Below, in pieces: positions 7,177 to 29,632 of a DNA stretch of 41,104 nt. The position numbers and the translations under genes were made by a program. Numbering within the stretch: the stretch's first letter is position 1; the number at the start of each line of letters is the position of its first letter. A model generated the notes under the pieces. That model worked only from the letters and a program-made list of their open reading frames with translations, was not told the origin of the DNA and made no database searches. Source of the DNA: an uncultured Hyphomicrobiales bacterium (GTDB lineage Bacteria > Pseudomonadota > Alphaproteobacteria > Rhizobiales > Beijerinckiaceae); assembly GCA_903902915.1 (NCBI GenBank), contig CAIUWR010000092.1, positions 1 to 41,104 of the forward strand, written 5' to 3'.

Positions 7177-9495
7177 TTAAGCGCGCTTCGCCTCGTCCAT
7201 GATCCGCCACAAACGTTCGGGGGTCGCGGGCATCTCGACATGCGTGACGCCCAGATGGGACAGCGCGTCCACCAGCGCATTGCCAACAGCAGGCAGCGCG
7301 CCCACGCAGCCCGCCTCGCCCGCGCCCTTCACGCCCAGAAGGTTCGTCTTCGTCGGCACCGGATTCGACTTGATGTCGATATGCGGGAAGATTTCCGCAT
7401 GGGGCATGGCGTAATCCATGAAGGAGCCAGTCAGGTTCTGCCCGCTGGTTGGGTCGAAGCGGATCTGCTCCATCAGCATCTGCCCCACGCCCTGGGAAAT
7501 GCCGCCGATGATCTGCCCCTTGAGGAGCAGCGGATTGAGCACATTGCCCACATCGTCCACCACCACATAACGATCCATTTCGACCTGCCCGGTGTCCTCG
7601 TCGATCTCGAGTTCGACGATGTGGCAGCCGTTGGGATAGTTCTGCTTGGTCGTGTGATAGGCGGCGGTGGCGTTGAGGCCCAGCTCCATGCCCTGGGGCA
7701 GGTTCTTCGGGCTCATGGCGGCGCGCGCCACATCCTTCATGGACAAGGTGCGATTGGTCTGGCGGGCGGTGAAGACGCCCTCGGCGAAGTCCACCTCATC
7801 CACGCCCATCATATGGGCCGCGATCTTCTTCGCCTTGTCGACGACCTTGCCCGTGGCGACGGTCACAGCCGAACCGCCCAGCGAGGCGGTGCGCGAACCG
7901 CCCGTACCCTCGCCGAAGAAGACCTGATCCGTGTCGCCTTGCAGATAATGGATCTCGTCGGGATGGATGCCCAATGTGTCCGACACGATCTGTTTGAAGA
8001 TGGTCTCGTGCCCCTGCCCCTGCGTGACCGAGCCCGCCAGAACTGTGACGGAGCCCGTGCGATCAAAGCGCACTTCGGCGCCCTCATAGCCTGGCGAAGC
8101 CGCCTTTTCGATGGTGAAGGACATGCCGATGCCGCGCAACTTGCCGCGCTTGCGCGCCTCGGCCCGGCGCGCCTCGAACCCCTTGTAGTCCGCCATTTCA
8201 AGGGTGAGATCGAGGATCTTCTCGAACTCGCCGCAGTCAATATTGAAGGACAAGCCTGTCTGGAAAGGCATTTTTTCAGGCGGGATCAAATTGCGGCGGC
8301 GCAGCTCCGCCGGATCAATGCCCAGCTCATCCGCCGCCATATCGACAATGCGCTCGATGACGAAAGCCGCCTCCGGGCGTCCATTGCCGCGGAAGGGGCG
8401 CATGGGATTGGTGTTGGTGTAAACCGCCGTCACGTCCACATGGATCGCCGGCGTCAGATAGACGCCCGCCAGCGTGCCAAGGTTGCTATAGGCGCCGCTG
8501 TCCGTGCCGGGCTGCGTATAGCTGCCCATATTCACAAGATTATGCACCCGCAAGCCAAGGAACATGCCGTTCTTGTCGAGCGCGAGTTCGGCGTCCGACA
8601 CATTGTCGCGGCCATGGGCGTCGGCGAGGAAACTCTCGGAGCGCGTGCTCACCCATTTCACCGGATGGCCCGTCACCTTGGAGGCCAGCAACACGAGGCC
8701 CACTTCGTTGAACACGCCCGACTTCATGCCGAAGCTGCCGCCGATGTCGCCCGCAACCACGCGCAAACGGCTCTCGGGGATGTTCAGCGTCTCGGCAAGC
8801 TCCTCGCGGAAGTTCAACGCGCGCTGCAGCGTCGTATAGATCGTGTAGCGGTCGGCGGCCTGATCGTAATGGCCGATGGAGCCGCGCGTCTCCATGGTCG
8901 CCGCCGTCACGCGGCTGATCACGAAGCGCTTCTTGACGATATGGTCGGCCTTGGCGAAGGCGGCGTCGGTCGCCTGTTTGTCACCTTCCAGATGCACGAA
9001 GCAGATGTTGTTTTCGCAATCGTCCCAGACCAGAGGCGCGCCCGGCTGGGAGCCCAGCGCCACGGAGGTGACCGAGGGCAGAATGTCGTAATCGACCTCG
9101 ATCAGTTCGGCGGCGTCCTGCGCCTGCTCGATGGTGTCGGCCACGACGAAGGCCACGGGGTCGCCGACGTAGCGCACCTTCACCTTCGCCAAGGCTGGAA
9201 AATGCGGGCGATACATGGGCGAGCCGTCGCGCTTCTTCTTGCCCTCCGCGCGCGGCAGATCGCCATAACCGGACTTCGCCCAATCCTCGCCGATCAACAC
9301 GGCGCGGACGCCGGGCGCAGCCTTGGCCTTCGAAATATCGAGGCGGGTGATGTTCGCATGGGCGTGGGGGGAGCGCAGCACATGGCCGTAGAGCATGCCG
9401 GGAAAGGCCAGATCGTCCACATAGCGACCGCCGCCTTTGAGAAGGCGCGGATCCTCAAAGCGTGTAACCGGCTGTCCGATCGCAAACTCACCCAT
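7177..9495 (-). CDS. Molybdopterin hydroxylase large subunit (CoxL-like, paralogue 2)
   Basis: 772 residues from the ATG at 9495, which gives the family opening MGEFAIGQPVTRFEDPRLL; an in-frame TTG at 9513 would add six residues without family support. This is a Mo-cofactor-binding large subunit of a xanthine dehydrogenase/CO dehydrogenase-type enzyme. The active-site loop reads PFRGNGR (367-373), different from both other copies here. The Mo-binding segment is GSVTQGQGHETIF and the catalytic Glu is in GAGEAG near the C-terminus. It is the last gene of a large-small-medium-large operon, 87 bases after the FAD subunit, with competing hairpins in that gap. The different loop suggests another substrate pocket from paralogue 3. 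Family is certain, substrate unknown. Confidence 0.9.
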   Translation of the reverse strand: MGEFAIGQPVTRFEDPRLLKGGGRYVDDLAFPGMLYGHVLRSPHAHANITRLDISKAKAAPGVRAVLIGEDWAKSGYGDLPRAEGKKKRDGSPMYRPHFPALAKVKVRYVGDPVAFVVADTIEQAQDAAELIEVDYDILPSVTSVALGSQPGAPLVWDDCENNICFVHLEGDKQATDAAFAKADHIVKKRFVISRVTAATMETRGSIGHYDQAADRYTIYTTLQRALNFREELAETLNIPESRLRVVAGDIGGSFGMKSGVFNEVGLVLLASKVTGHPVKWVSTRSESFLADAHGRDNVSDAELALDKNGMFLGLRVHNLVNMGSYTQPGTDSGAYSNLGTLAGVYLTPAIHVDVTAVYTNTNPMRPFRGNGRPEAAFVIERIVDMAADELGIDPAELRRRNLIPPEKMPFQTGLSFNIDCGEFEKILDLTLEMADYKGFEARRAEARKRGKLRGIGMSFTIEKAASPGYEGAEVRFDRTGSVTVLAGSVTQGQGHETIFKQIVSDTLGIHPDEIHYLQGDTDQVFFGEGTGGSRTASLGGSAVTVATGKVVDKAKKIAAHMMGVDEVDFAEGVFTARQTNRTLSMKDVARAAMSPKNLPQGMELGLNATAAYHTTKQNYPNGCHIVELEIDEDTGQVEMDRYVVVDDVGNVLNPLLLKGQIIGGISQGVGQMLMEQIRFDPTSGQNLTGSFMDYAMPHAEIFPHIDIKSNPVPTKTNLLGVKGAGEAGCVGALPAVGNALVDALSHLGVTHVEMPATPERLWRIMDEAKRA

Positions 9496-9496
9496 G

Positions 9497-9555
9497 GCGC
9501 CCGCCCTCTTCAAATCTTGAAATCATGGAATGCAGGCGGGCGCTTTCGCCCGCCT
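9497..9555 (-). promoter_or_regulatory. Three-arm competing hairpin before CoxL-like paralogue 2
   Basis: On the transcribed (-) strand, arm 1 (GGCGGGCG, from 9554-9547), arm 2 (CGCCCGCC, from 9542-9535) and arm 3 (GGCGGGCG, from 9505-9498) occur in order. Arms 1 and 2 form a 9-bp stem with tetraloop AAAG. Arm 2 can instead pair 9 bp with arm 3, which lies directly before the ATG at 9495 and next to its AGAGGG ribosome site. The pairings are mutually exclusive, so this could set expression of the last operon gene. No T tract is present. Confidence 0.45.
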
Positions 9556-9582
9556 TGTGGCCCCGGAGCCGGAGCCCTTTGA

Positions 9583-10380
9583 TCAGCCCACCATGGCCTC
9601 AACCGCGCGGCGCGCGTAGACCGTGATGAGATGGGCGCGATAGGCCGCGCTGCAATGGATGTCGCCCATGAGCTGCTCGGCGGACACATGGATATTGGCC
9701 ACGCTGGCGGGCGCGAAGCTCTTCTCCAGCGCCGCTTCCATTTCGGCCACGCGGAACACGCAGGGGCCTGCGCCGGTGACAGCCACGCGCACCTTGGCGC
9801 CAAACTGCGCCACCATGACGCCCACCACCGCATAGCCGGAGGCCGGGTGACGGAACTTCATGTAGTAGGCGCGATCAGGAATCTGGAAACGCACTTCGGT
9901 GATGATCTCGGACGGCTCAAGCGCGGTCTCGAAGAGGCCCACGAAAAAATCATCCGCCGCGATCTTGCGCTGGCTGGTGACGATGGTGGCGTCAAGGCCC
10001 ACGCAAGCGGCGGGATAATCCGCAGCCGGATCGGAGTTGGCGACGGAGCCGCCGATGGTGCCGCGATGGCGCACGGCGGGATCGCCGATATTGCCCGCAA
10101 GCTGCGCCAGCGCGGGAAGCGCTTTCTGCACCTCGGCGGAAGCCGCGACGACCGCATGCGGCGTCATGGCGCGCACGACGACTTCCCCGCTCTCGACCGA
10201 AATCCCCTTGAGGTCGGAAATCGCGGCCAGATCGATCAGATCGCTCGGCGCCGCGAGGCGGTTCTTCAGGGTGGGGAGCAAGGTCATGCCGCCCGCGAGG
10301 AGCTTGGGATCCTCGGTGGCGGTAAGCTTGGCGGCCGCATCGGCGACGTCGGCGGCGCGATGATAATTGAAATTATGCAT
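9583..10380 (-). CDS. Molybdopterin hydroxylase medium (FAD) subunit, CoxM-like
   Basis: 265 residues, slightly shorter than the usual 280-290. It binds FAD and passes electrons from the FeS subunit to an acceptor. Both FAD-binding signatures are present: AGGMTLLP (29-36, family AGGQSLxP) and RHRGTIGGSVANSDPAAD (104-121). The C-terminal CO_deh_flav_C domain follows. It starts at an ATG 10 bases after the small-subunit stop, so the two are translated together. It is the only medium subunit in the window and would have to serve both operon large subunits, and perhaps the + strand one. Confidence 0.92.
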   Translation of the reverse strand: MHNFNYHRAADVADAAAKLTATEDPKLLAGGMTLLPTLKNRLAAPSDLIDLAAISDLKGISVESGEVVVRAMTPHAVVAASAEVQKALPALAQLAGNIGDPAVRHRGTIGGSVANSDPAADYPAACVGLDATIVTSQRKIAADDFFVGLFETALEPSEIITEVRFQIPDRAYYMKFRHPASGYAVVGVMVAQFGAKVRVAVTGAGPCVFRVAEMEAALEKSFAPASVANIHVSAEQLMGDIHCSAAYRAHLITVYARRAVEAMVG

Positions 10381-25700: not shown

Positions 25701-26264
25701 TCACCCAGCGGTCGACCGGAACTCCTTCTCCACCGCGCGCAGCACCGTCGCGCTGGTGGGATCGGTGATCGTGCTGAAGACGTCGGCGATGCGGCCGTCC
25801 TTGCCGACGAGATATTTGTGAAAGTTCCAGCGGGGCAGATCGTTGGGACGCTCCAACGCCGCCCAGCGATAAAAAGGATGGGCGTCCGACCCCAGCACCT
25901 TGGCCTTGGCCGCGATAGGGAAGCGCACGCCATAGCCTTCGGCGGCGTGGTGGATCTCCTCGACCCCGCCCGGCTCCTGGCCGCCAAAATCATTGGAGGG
26001 GACGGCGATCATCATCAGCCCCATGGGCGAGTACCGCTCCCAAAGCTTTTGCAATCCGGCGTACTGGCCCACGAAGCCGCAGAGCGAGGCCGTGTTGACC
26101 ACCATGATCGGCTTGCCAGCGAAGGCGCTCAGCTTGATCTCGCCCTTGTCGAGGCCCGTGAAGGACATGGTGTAGCAGGTGCGGCCGCTGACCGCAGGCG
26201 CCTGCGCAAGCGCAGGCCCCGCGACGAACGCCAAGCCCGCACCCAAAAACGAGCGACGCTTCAT
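25701..26264 (-). CDS. Exported glutathione peroxidase family protein
   Basis: 187 residues. The N-terminus MKRRSFLGAGLAFVAGPALA looks like a twin-arginine-type signal (RRSFLG), so it may be exported folded. The thioredoxin-fold core has the peroxidatic Cys62 in NTASLCG, the second family motif PSNDFGGQEPG and the conserved WNFHKYLV near the end with its catalytic Trp/Asn. It uses Cys rather than selenocysteine, and such enzymes usually take electrons from thioredoxin to reduce peroxides. It stands alone beside the kinase gene. Family is certain; export route is inferred. Confidence 0.88.
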   Translation of the reverse strand: MKRRSFLGAGLAFVAGPALAQAPAVSGRTCYTMSFTGLDKGEIKLSAFAGKPIMVVNTASLCGFVGQYAGLQKLWERYSPMGLMMIAVPSNDFGGQEPGGVEEIHHAAEGYGVRFPIAAKAKVLGSDAHPFYRWAALERPNDLPRWNFHKYLVGKDGRIADVFSTITDPTSATVLRAVEKEFRSTAG

Positions 26265-27514: not shown

Positions 27515-28360
27515 TTACGCCCGATCCGGCGCCCGCAGCACAGGAGGCTCCAGCGCCACGCGCAGGGCCTCCTCGATGGGGGCCTGCGGGTTCCAGTCCT
27601 TGCCCACATAGCGCTTGCCCGTGACACCATCCGACAGGGTGGAGGCGAGCCAGAGCATGGGGGCGATCATGACCTCGGGCTCCAGCAGCGGCCGCCCCGT
27701 TTCGCGCGCCTGACGTTTGCCCGACGCGCTGACGAAATCCGTGTTCACCGCTCCGCCGGGGATCAGCGAATTCACGGTGACGCCCGTGCCCGCCAGATCC
27801 TGCGCCCAGATCAGCGTCTCCGCCTCGATGGCGGTCTTGCTGACGCCATAGGGCGAGTTTTCGCGGCGCTGCATGGTGGACAGGCTCGTGGTCACATTCA
27901 CGATGCGGCCCCAGCCCGACGCGATCAGCGCGGGGGCGGCGGCGCGCGCCATGAAGAATGTGCCGACCACATTGGTCTCGATGATCTGGCGCCAGACGTC
28001 GGCGTCCGATTCCCAGAAGCGCAGACTCTTCGTGCCGGGCGCGGCTTCCAGTTGGGCGGGGCCTTTGCCCGCATTGTTGACCAGGATGTGCAAGCCGCCA
28101 AACAGCCGAATGGTCTCGGCCACCGTGCGCTCGCAATCACCCCTAAGGGAGATGTCGCAGGGCATGCCCATGGCCTTGCCGCAACCCTCGAGGAAGGCGA
28201 CCTGCGCCACCGCGCCGCCCGTCGCGCCCGCATTGATGTCGGCGAAGACCACATTGGCGCCCGCCCGCACCAAGGCCTGCGCCATGGCGCGGCCAAGGCC
28301 GGCGGCGGCGCCGGTGACAAGCGCCACGCGCCCGTCGAGACGGATGTCGGAAGCGAGCAT
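27515..28360 (-). CDS. Short-chain dehydrogenase/reductase (SDR 1)
   Basis: 281 residues. NAD(P)-binding TGAAAGLG at about 16-23, structural NNAG, catalytic Ser in VTTSLS and Tyr-X3-Lys in SPYGVSK are all present, so it should be an active oxidoreductase on an alcohol or ketone. It is slightly longer than the usual 250 because of an insert after NNAG (KGPAQLEAAPGTKSLRFW). Its ATG overlaps the stop of the hydratase alpha-type gene by one base (TGATG), so it is translationally coupled and likely acts on a related metabolite. The substrate is unknown. Confidence 0.9.
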   Translation of the reverse strand: MLASDIRLDGRVALVTGAAAGLGRAMAQALVRAGANVVFADINAGATGGAVAQVAFLEGCGKAMGMPCDISLRGDCERTVAETIRLFGGLHILVNNAGKGPAQLEAAPGTKSLRFWESDADVWRQIIETNVVGTFFMARAAAPALIASGWGRIVNVTTSLSTMQRRENSPYGVSKTAIEAETLIWAQDLAGTGVTVNSLIPGGAVNTDFVSASGKRQARETGRPLLEPEVMIAPMLWLASTLSDGVTGKRYVGKDWNPQAPIEEALRVALEPPVLRAPDRA

Positions 28361-29010
28361 CAGCGCGCGCCCCCGTCCAGCAGCGCCACGCCGATCATGG
28401 AATCGCGGGTGACGAGGGCGGCGAGCGCCTCCTCATCCAGCGCGTCGGTCCCCACGGGCCGTTGCGGCAGCACGAGGAAGCGGATGTCGGCGGTGGAGTC
28501 GTGCACGCGCAGGGCCACATCGTCGGACAATTCCGTGCCGAATTCGCGCAGAACCGCGCGCGGCTCACGCACCACGCGGGCGCGATAGGCGCGGCTCTTG
28601 TACCAGGCGGGCGGCAGGCCCAGCAGATCGCGCGGGTAGCAGGAGCAGAGCGTGCAGACCACGACATTATGGGTGTCGGACGTATTCTCCACCGCCACCA
28701 GCTTCGTGCCGGTGATCGGGAAGCCCAGCTCCGCAGCGGCGGCGTTGCCGTCCTCCAGCAGCCGCGCGCGATAGGCGGGATCAAGCCAGGCGCGGGCCAC
28801 CACCTTGGCGCCATTGGCGGGGGTGATGGAATCGCGCTTCTCGATGAACTGGCGAACCTCGGCGGCGGTGATGACACCCTTTTCGATCAGCAGCTCCTTC
28901 AGCGCGATGCTGAGGATCTGGTGATAGCTATGCACCTTGTCGTCGGGCTGCGGCGGCGCGTGCGGATGGTCGTGATCGTGGTCATGGTCGTGGTGGTGAT
29001 GGCCGCTCAT
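28360..29010 (-). CDS. Nitrile hydratase alpha/thiocyanate hydrolase gamma-type subunit with His/Asp-rich tail
   Basis: 216 residues from the ATG at 29010. The metal claw CTLCSC (Cys119, Cys122, Cys124) has Thr in the second place, which marks the cobalt type; iron types have CSLCSC. Two of these Cys are normally oxidised after translation. Residues 4-17 are HHHHDHDHDHDHPH, an unusual metal-binding tail that could load or store cobalt. Family enzymes add water to nitriles, or hydrolyse thiocyanate to carbonyl sulphide and ammonia. It is third in a three-gene hydratase operon, with start and stop overlaps of one base (TGATG) on both sides. No separate activator gene is visible. Confidence 0.9.
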   Translation of the reverse strand: MSGHHHHDHDHDHDHPHAPPQPDDKVHSYHQILSIALKELLIEKGVITAAEVRQFIEKRDSITPANGAKVVARAWLDPAYRARLLEDGNAAAAELGFPITGTKLVAVENTSDTHNVVVCTLCSCYPRDLLGLPPAWYKSRAYRARVVREPRAVLREFGTELSDDVALRVHDSTADIRFLVLPQRPVGTDALDEEALAALVTRDSMIGVALLDGGAR

Positions 29011-29288
29011 CAGATCGTCTCCAGCCAATGGTCGTAAAGATCGGCTTCGATCACATCCTTCTGCGAGCCCTGATAGTCCGGCCACAGATCGGCGGCGCGA
29101 AAGCGCACCTTGTAGAGATCCTTCTTCGGGCCGGTCAGGTTGTAGGCGAGGCGCTCAGGGTTGCCGAAGGCGCCGAAATAGCGCTGCACCACGCCCGGCT
29201 TGCCGCGCAGATAGACGGGGGTTCGGATATGGCCGGGCGGACAATCCTCGCGCACGCGCACCTTGGCGCCGGGTTCAAACCGCGTCAT
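29010..29288 (-). CDS. Nitrile hydratase beta C-terminal domain/thiocyanate hydrolase alpha-type subunit
   Basis: 92 residues that match only the C-terminal SH3-like half of a normal nitrile hydratase beta chain: VRVREDCPPGHIRTPVYLRG followed by KPGVVQRYFGAFGNPE and a closing VRFRAADLWPDY. The conserved GHxRxPxYxRGKxG is intact and supplies an Arg that hydrogen-bonds the oxidised claw Cys in known structures. Its stop overlaps the next start in TGATG, and its own ATG overlaps the previous stop by four bases. A separate gene for this half is known in thiocyanate hydrolase (ScnA) and toyocamycin nitrile hydratase. Which of these functions applies is unresolved. Confidence 0.86.
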   Translation of the reverse strand: MTRFEPGAKVRVREDCPPGHIRTPVYLRGKPGVVQRYFGAFGNPERLAYNLTGPKKDLYKVRFRAADLWPDYQGSQKDVIEADLYDHWLETI

Positions 29289-29632
29289 GGCAGCTTCTCC
29301 GCTTCGCCTGCGCTCAGCTCCAGCTCGCCGGTTTCCACGAGGCGCTGGCGCACCTGCGCCACCTTGGCGTCGATCTCATCTTGCGTGAGCACGCCGCGCT
29401 CGACCATTTGCAGGGAGAGGGCGGCGGTCCAGCGTTCGTAATAGGTCAGCCGCCCCATGGCGTCATGGCCGAGCGATTCGATGGCGCGGCGGCTTTCGTG
29501 GCTGGACATGAGCCCCTTGGAGCCGACGGCGGCGCGCAGGCCATCCGCCTGTTTTTCCCAGAAATTCAGGGTGTGTTCCGATGGATCGACCGGCCCTTCG
29601 GGCAGGCCGCCTATGTCCTGTGGGCTGCGCAT
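29285..29632 (-). CDS. Nitrile hydratase beta N-terminal domain/thiocyanate hydrolase beta-type subunit
   Basis: 115 residues corresponding to the N-terminal half of nitrile hydratase beta: DIGGLPEGPVDP opening, FWEKQADGLRAAV, then LTYYERWTAALSLQMVERGVLT. Gene order N-half, C-half, alpha equals the scnB-scnA-scnC order of thiocyanate hydrolase. In the helix usually reading IERM, which carries a conserved active-site Arg, I read IESL, so that Arg may be lost or displaced. It could also be taken for a hydratase activator (P14K/P15K-like), but then the beta N-half would be missing altogether. GGGAGAAGG precedes the ATG. Divergent from the dienelactone hydrolase gene. Confidence 0.82.
   Translation of the reverse strand: MRSPQDIGGLPEGPVDPSEHTLNFWEKQADGLRAAVGSKGLMSSHESRRAIESLGHDAMGRLTYYERWTAALSLQMVERGVLTQDEIDAKVAQVRQRLVETGELELSAGEAEKLP

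Follow-up and report, generated by a model that had tools for sequence, protein, structure and literature searches.

A predicted three-gene cobalt-type nitrile hydratase without a recognisable activator gene in an uncultured Hyphomicrobiales bacterium

In known nitrile hydratases two arginines of the beta subunit hold the oxidised cysteines of the metal claw. Members of this enzyme family with three subunits include the thiocyanate hydrolase ScnBAC of Thiobacillus thioparus (Protein Data Bank (PDB) 2dd4) and the toyocamycin nitrile hydratase ToyJKL, whose alpha subunit alone is reportedly active and fully modified. Here we analyse a set of this kind in a 41,104-nucleotide (nt) stretch of DNA from an uncultured Hyphomicrobiales bacterium (contig CAIUWR010000092.1; "the window"). 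Like ToyJKL, the set has three subunits: free-standing N-terminal and C-terminal halves of a beta chain (betaN and betaC) and an alpha. We put at about 0.62 the probability that these form a cobalt nitrile hydratase that has no dedicated activator, with betaN doubling as activator, the His/Asp-rich tail of alpha an accessory feature, and some organic nitrile as substrate.

The closest functional precedent, which the original prediction for this locus missed when it named ToyJKL as the other known three-subunit case, is the cobalt-type nitrile hydratase of Streptomyces canus CGMCC 13662, encoded by anhD-anhE-anhA (betaN, betaC and alpha, respectively), whose authors report finding no gene for an activator in the organism's genome (PMC7329996). 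There, apo-AnhDEA reached 54% of the holo activity when supplied with holo-AnhDA (AnhD2A), 38% with apo-AnhDA in cobalt/dithiothreitol (DTT) buffer, and 36% with cobalt and DTT alone, and the authors concluded that AnhD is both a part of beta and a metal and swapping chaperone, beside direct insertion of cobalt (PMC7329996). The window set shares with AnhDEA its order, its three subunits and the lack of a recognisable activator gene in the genome, and betaN is therefore taken to do the activator's work. It differs in that AnhA, at 21.33 kDa (PMC7329996), would have little room for a long tail such as that of the window alpha. Within the literature we found, activator-less three-piece cobalt hydratases have been studied in this one Streptomyces (PMC7329996), with ToyJKL perhaps a second case.

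The genes lie on the minus strand in the order betaN-betaC-alpha-SDR (Table 1), and all of them overlap: betaN and betaC by 4 nt (ATGA), and betaC/alpha and alpha/SDR by 1 nt each (TGATG). Their Pfam families are NHase_beta_N, NHase_beta_C, NHase_alpha and adh_short, respectively, and both beta halves score above the cut-offs of their models. What had earlier been seen at the locus is borne out by the Pfam matches, coordinates and domain order, namely a hydratase with its beta chain split in two and followed by an alpha-type gene, the order of scnB-scnA-scnC, a cobalt-type claw CTLCSC, and overlapping junctions throughout, including that into the SDR gene. The alpha begins with MSGHHHHDHDHDHDHPHAPPQ and contains CTLCSCYPR; the claw is invariant in an alignment of 19 alphas.

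Table 1. Features of the three-gene set and the adjoining oxidoreductase gene in the window
Feature	Position	Strand	Evidence
betaN, free-standing N-terminal half of hydratase beta chain, 115 aa (amino acids)	29285..29632	-	PF21006 E=5.2e-19
betaC, free-standing C-terminal half of beta chain, 92 aa	29010..29288	-	PF02211 E=8.9e-21
alpha, cobalt-binding catalytic subunit (by homology), 216 aa, ATG at 29010	28360..29010	-	PF02979 E=1.6e-81
His/Asp-rich N-terminal tail of alpha, HHHHDHDHDHDHPH, residues 4-17	28960..29001	-	sequence; like tail in ScnC and many sampled alphas
Metal claw CTLCSC, residues 119-124 of alpha, then Tyr-Pro-Arg	28639..28656	-	sequence
SDR-family oxidoreductase, last gene of overlapping set	27515..28360	-	PF00106 (adh_short) E=1.9e-41

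The window alpha passes the nitrile hydratase equivalog model TIGR01323 (263.2 bits against a cut-off of 249.85) and matches PDB chain 2dpp_A with E=9.2e-66 in a phmmer search. The two beta halves both match TIGR03888, betaN at model positions 1-99 and betaC at 137-225, neither alone scoring above the cut-off; betaN aligns with ScnB (2dd4_B, E=4.6e-6), betaC matches ScnA (2dd4_A, E=3.3e-5), and an Arg of each (in HESRRAI of betaN and GHIRTP of betaC) aligns with those of ScnB/ScnA and of conventional betas. The set resembles conventional cobalt-type nitrile hydratases (2dpp, 3qxe) in its alpha sequence and claw, in both alignable beta halves and in the tail, which many of them have; it differs from them in that they have a single beta gene and, in our sample, Trp, His, Phe or Tyr as the residue that follows CSC and two further residues.

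No activator gene adjoins the set, as had been noted earlier, and genome-wide searches of G000 (99.91% complete, 102 contigs) did not recognise one either. PF21006 has one match in G000, betaN itself, and a search with the activator model TIGR03889 gave nothing above its cut-off. Because the P15K-like protein of L186, a thiocyanate hydrolase locus, escaped PF21006 and a betaN profile, we built an activator profile from a 17-row alignment that includes it. In G000 this profile found betaN alone (E=0.0017, with a limit of 10), as did a search with the L186 protein as query (E=0.058). In control genomes the profile recovered the G035 activator (2e-48), the G218 activator (7e-30) and the G705 P15K (1e-12); the proteins of G218 and G705 are part of the alignment, whereas that of G035 is not. 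Within the sensitivity of these searches no dedicated P14K/P15K-type activator is recognisable in G000. Eight relatives (G034, G504, G553, G392, G657, G297, G298 and G299) likewise have a split set and a single PF21006 match, which is the split betaN. The activator profile gave no match in G034 and G504, and in the other six its matches below E=0.01 were confined to the set itself, with an additional match outside the set in G657 at E=0.14. The idea that betaN is really an activator was rejected on its much better score with the beta model (57.4 bits) than with TIGR03889 (18.5 bits against a cut-off of 46).

To place the set among its relatives we compared 152 alphas, those sharing the same 120-residue core having been merged before counting. 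The sample is not random: its sources were the window's relatives, the order and phylum of the window, the G300 family (G300 being a Roseomonas genome) and plasmids, and L062 (whose alpha is cut by a contig end) and the later additions L191-L194 stand outside it. The residue after CSCYP is Arg in 54 and Lys in 3 (57 of 152), and the remaining 95 have Trp, His, Phe or Tyr there; 88 of these 95 have an adjacent activator. A second betaN-type gene is present at none of the 57 Arg/Lys loci, absence here and throughout the sample referring to the DNA around the locus, which is shorter than 600 nt on one side of alpha in L034, L063, L174 and L181; at these four loci an activator might have been cut off, but for L034 the whole genome was searched. 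One of the 57, L186, is a true thiocyanate hydrolase with a divergent P15K-like gene. In a tree of 84 alphas (82 of the 152, comprising 54 Arg/Lys and 28 chosen conventional ones, plus ScnC and 2dpp, with the incomplete L125, L063 and L181 omitted), a branch with support 98/97 sets the 55 Arg/Lys rows, including ScnC and the window alpha, apart from the others. In an earlier tree, which had 105 rows, 77 conventional rows were split off with support 100/99. Gene orders in the Arg/Lys branch are betaN-betaC-alpha, betaC-alpha-betaN (on plasmids of Polymorphobacter, Microvirga, Rhizobium, Azospirillum and Agrobacterium) or a betaN-alpha fusion. On the conventional side nine sets with a split beta keep an activator (three of them, L116, L139 and L140, may be frameshifts), and an annotated Gloeocapsopsis plasmid also has both a split beta and an activator, so fission of beta alone does not explain activator loss.

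Of 200 genomes in the G300 family, 122 contain betaN-like matches, and in 95 of these the match is single. We looked at part of the 95, of which at least three are of other kinds: G705 is a thiocyanate hydrolase, G709 has only a fusion, and G714 has a conventional hydratase whose second betaN was missed. These counts suggest that the activator-less three-piece arrangement is common; its extent across genomes is new to us, and the window set itself falls in a known type. The many sets provide small natural systems in which to study the delivery of non-corrin cobalt to its site, and a hydratase that works without a helper gene would be easier to use in biocatalysis.

Several other loci in the survey have features of their own. 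L146, L148, L150 and L154 encode alphas with CTLCSCTA(F/Y)TIIG beside a conventional beta and form a separate lineage in the G300 family; no second betaN is present in the 3.3 kb of DNA covering each of these loci. In two halophilic archaea (L041 and L057) alpha and the activator share a single open frame, with the activator on the C-terminal side of alpha. Two plasmids, of Roseomonas marmotae (L191) and Azospirillum ramasamyi (L192), have P15K-like frames directly behind scnC (L191:3717-4040 and L192:3717-4043) that are about 59% identical to that of L186 and have no gene entry in the PLSDB table, which is incomplete; these plasmids carry one 852-nt gene where scnB and scnA are expected. A search for viral copies found no relative in a collection of viral contigs.

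The tail of the window alpha is written in mixed synonymous His and Asp codons, and L034 and L062, the nearest relatives, have a tail of different length. It is therefore a feature of the protein and did not arise as a chance repeat. The original prediction knew of such a tail in neither prototype, thiocyanate hydrolase or ToyJKL. When the first 60 residues of alpha were compared with PDB sequences, however, the top match was the thiocyanate hydrolase gamma chain ScnC (2dd4_C, E=3.3e-8), whose start reads SADHDHDHDHDHDHKPAP. The cobalt-type alpha of PDB 3qxe/3qz5, which we take to be that of P. putida, shows SHTHDHHHDG, with a weak score. For each of the 152 alphas we took the 66 residues preceding the core and counted His in every 20-residue span; a maximum of six or more was called a tail, and three or fewer none. 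Maxima of 4-5 (17 of 152) are unclear, because a reading frame that extends beyond the real start may contribute some extra His. A tail is accompanied by an adjacent activator in 60 alphas and by no adjacent betaN-type activator in 31 (one of which, L186, has its P15K-like gene); there are 18 alphas with an activator and no tail, and 26 with neither. Put differently, 60 of the 78 activator-accompanied alphas with a clear tail call have a tail. The 26 consist of 20 split Arg-type betaN-betaC-alpha sets of the Roseomonas family, five alphas with a conventional beta, and L125 (L125:824-3941, Rhizobium sp. C104), whose alpha gene is interrupted by an IS21-type element and whose first fragment shows a tail. 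The His/Asp tail is therefore common among these enzymes and is not a new device, the ScnC tail in the PDB and this survey together ruling out any novelty.

Could the set be a thiocyanate hydrolase, or a near variant of one that takes a small anion as its substrate? ScnBAC has the same gene order, a His/Asp tail on alpha and the same CTLCSCYPR, with Arg136 of ScnC corresponding to the Arg after CSCYP in the window alpha; that Arg is common to the whole branch, however, including plasmid relatives annotated as nitrile hydratases. The phylogeny does not decide the matter: the window alpha and ScnC are apart in the best tree, but a grouping of the window, L034, ScnC and L186 is not rejected by the alpha data (p-AU 0.474). 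Against it, the window alpha scores 205.9 bits with the thiocyanate hydrolase gamma model TIGR03887, well below the cut-off of 291.45, where the L186 alpha, as positive control, reaches 378.4. An alignment shows that the insert before the claw in ScnC is absent from the window alpha, and in place of the Arg90-Arg91 pair of ScnB betaN has Ser-Arg, with Ser at the Arg90 position (these two marks of thiocyanate hydrolase are our own choice from the sequences). Finally, ScnBAC has the activator P15K according to the literature; in the window an SDR gene follows alpha where a P15K gene would follow the scnC counterpart, and our searches recognised no P15K in the genome. With cut-off and signatures both failing, we set membership of the thiocyanate hydrolases aside and consider such an activity unlikely.

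The other alternatives concern the delivery of cobalt. An activator that our searches do not recognise, either a divergent P15K or a CobW-type GTPase, might load the metal from elsewhere in the genome; PF21006 does miss the P15K-like protein of L186, and six CobW-family stretches are present in G000. CobW presence is uninformative, because the family was also matched in 13 of 14 control genomes, and both the activator profile and the P15K-like query returned betaN alone; since no activator was recognised in the eight relatives either, we regard this explanation too as improbable. The original prediction favoured another device, in which cobalt is caught by the His/Asp string and passed on to the claw, so that an activator gene is not needed. 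The window does have a tail and no activator, and in Monosiga brevicollis, a eukaryote, the subunits of the enzyme are connected by a (His)17 linker; that enzyme is like the window set in its long His run by alpha (there between beta and alpha) and unlike it in having beta and alpha in one chain (PMC3323583 and PMC7193024). But all four combinations of tail and activator occur among the sampled alphas, so the two vary independently there, and the tail is thus a poor candidate for a chaperone replacement. Twenty three-gene sets have neither, and 12 of these 20 come from genomes with a single PF21006 match. Conversely, the three thiocyanate hydrolases examined (L186, L191 and L192) all combine a tailed alpha with a P15K-like frame behind scnC. 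The hydratase of P. putida, to which we assigned the tailed alpha of 3qxe/3qz5, likewise requires P14K (PMC4709657). Replacement of the chaperone by the tail is accordingly the least probable of these explanations, very unlikely in our judgement, and the frequency of His/Asp tails is a warning against reading them as a sign of chaperone loss.

The reading that we prefer, an enzyme whose betaN doubles as activator, would work as follows. The two beta pieces would jointly do the job of the single beta chain found elsewhere, and from homology we infer that the three products form a complex and hydrate nitriles. Cobalt would be bound by the CTLCSC claw of alpha, whose cysteines are probably oxidised, and one conserved Arg in each beta half aligns with the position of the cysteine-holding beta arginines of known nitrile hydratases. 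As AnhD is reported to do, free betaN most likely forms a small complex with alpha and so promotes both the loading of cobalt and the swapping of subunits, and the His/Asp tail would be an accessory metal-gathering or metal-buffering extension and not a replacement for the activator. The substrate would be an organic nitrile, perhaps one met in the neighbouring putative catabolic module described below. A number of points weigh against this proposal. The chaperone role that most likely falls to betaN is carried over from AnhD by architecture, and the AnhD effect is itself moderate, since cobalt and DTT alone bring apo-AnhDEA to 36% as compared with 54% with holo-AnhDA (PMC7329996). The window betaN resembles a beta half and not an activator, scoring below the TIGR03889 cut-off as given above. 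P15K-type activators can diverge past PF21006, that of L186 being missed by both PF21006 and the betaN profile, and any one of the six CobW-type stretches in G000 could serve. L186 has separate scnB and scnA and still has its P15K-like gene, and the nine conventional-side sets have both a split beta and an activator (some of the splits perhaps being frameshifts); because these keep one, having betaN as a free chain is not in itself enough to make an activator dispensable. Lastly, neither the SDR gene nor the module names a substrate, and no cobalt transporter is adjacent in the window.

In the Roseomonas family betaN and alpha are also found in one frame, joined by a His/Asp-rich linker, at 12 loci (L043, L045, L046, L050, L063, L156, L159, L162, L166, L167, L169 and L173). 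To see whether a betaC had been overlooked beside them, five of these loci (L043, L045, L046, L050 and L063, the last of which ends at alpha) were searched with a profile and no filter, and none was found (best E 0.64). Ten of the 11 fusion genomes searched also hold a separate split set, G709 being the one without, and these split sets are in some cases tail-less and in others tailed (G861, G840 and G789). No paper on such fusions turned up in literature searches that were aimed at other topics and for which subscription literature was mostly out of reach. It is conceivable, and we offer it as a tentative and rather doubtful idea, that the Arg/Lys branch outside the thiocyanate hydrolases matures without a dedicated activator, free betaN being both an enzyme part and a cobalt chaperone, and that the Roseomonas-family fusion is a covalent alpha-betaN cobalt-loading complex that feeds the three-gene enzyme.

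The set and its divergent neighbours are kept together in L062; these neighbours encode a dienelactone-hydrolase-like protein, a small protein, a glutathione S-transferase (GST), an ABC ATPase and permease, two SDRs and a binding protein. The first three are also present in L034, as is the SDR gene after alpha (68% identical over 101 aa up to the contig end). The best NCBIfam match of the GST is a beta-etherase model, at 175.7 bits far below the cut-off of 440. The dienelactone-hydrolase-like gene, the GST, the ABC importer and the SDRs suggest a catabolic module. We dropped an attempt to deduce the substrate from these neighbours, as the surroundings of the relatives examined are unlike and show no shared pathway. 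Among plasmid relatives that have a split beta and lack an annotated accessory gene, those of Streptomyces, Polymorphobacter, Microvirga, Rhizobium and Agrobacterium have NixA-type or CbtAB cobalt transporters as neighbours; that of Planktothrix does not. More generally, several plasmid three-gene sets (L114, L119-L124 and L127, with L122 lacking annotation) adjoin aquaporin, DUF302 or cobalt transporter (CbtAB/NixA type) genes, none of which is adjacent to the window set. Elsewhere in the window there are a glutathione-peroxidase-like gene (25704-26264, minus strand) and, at 7180-10380 on the minus strand, a gene for a molybdopterin-binding subunit beside one for an FAD-binding subunit, of the xanthine-dehydrogenase type.

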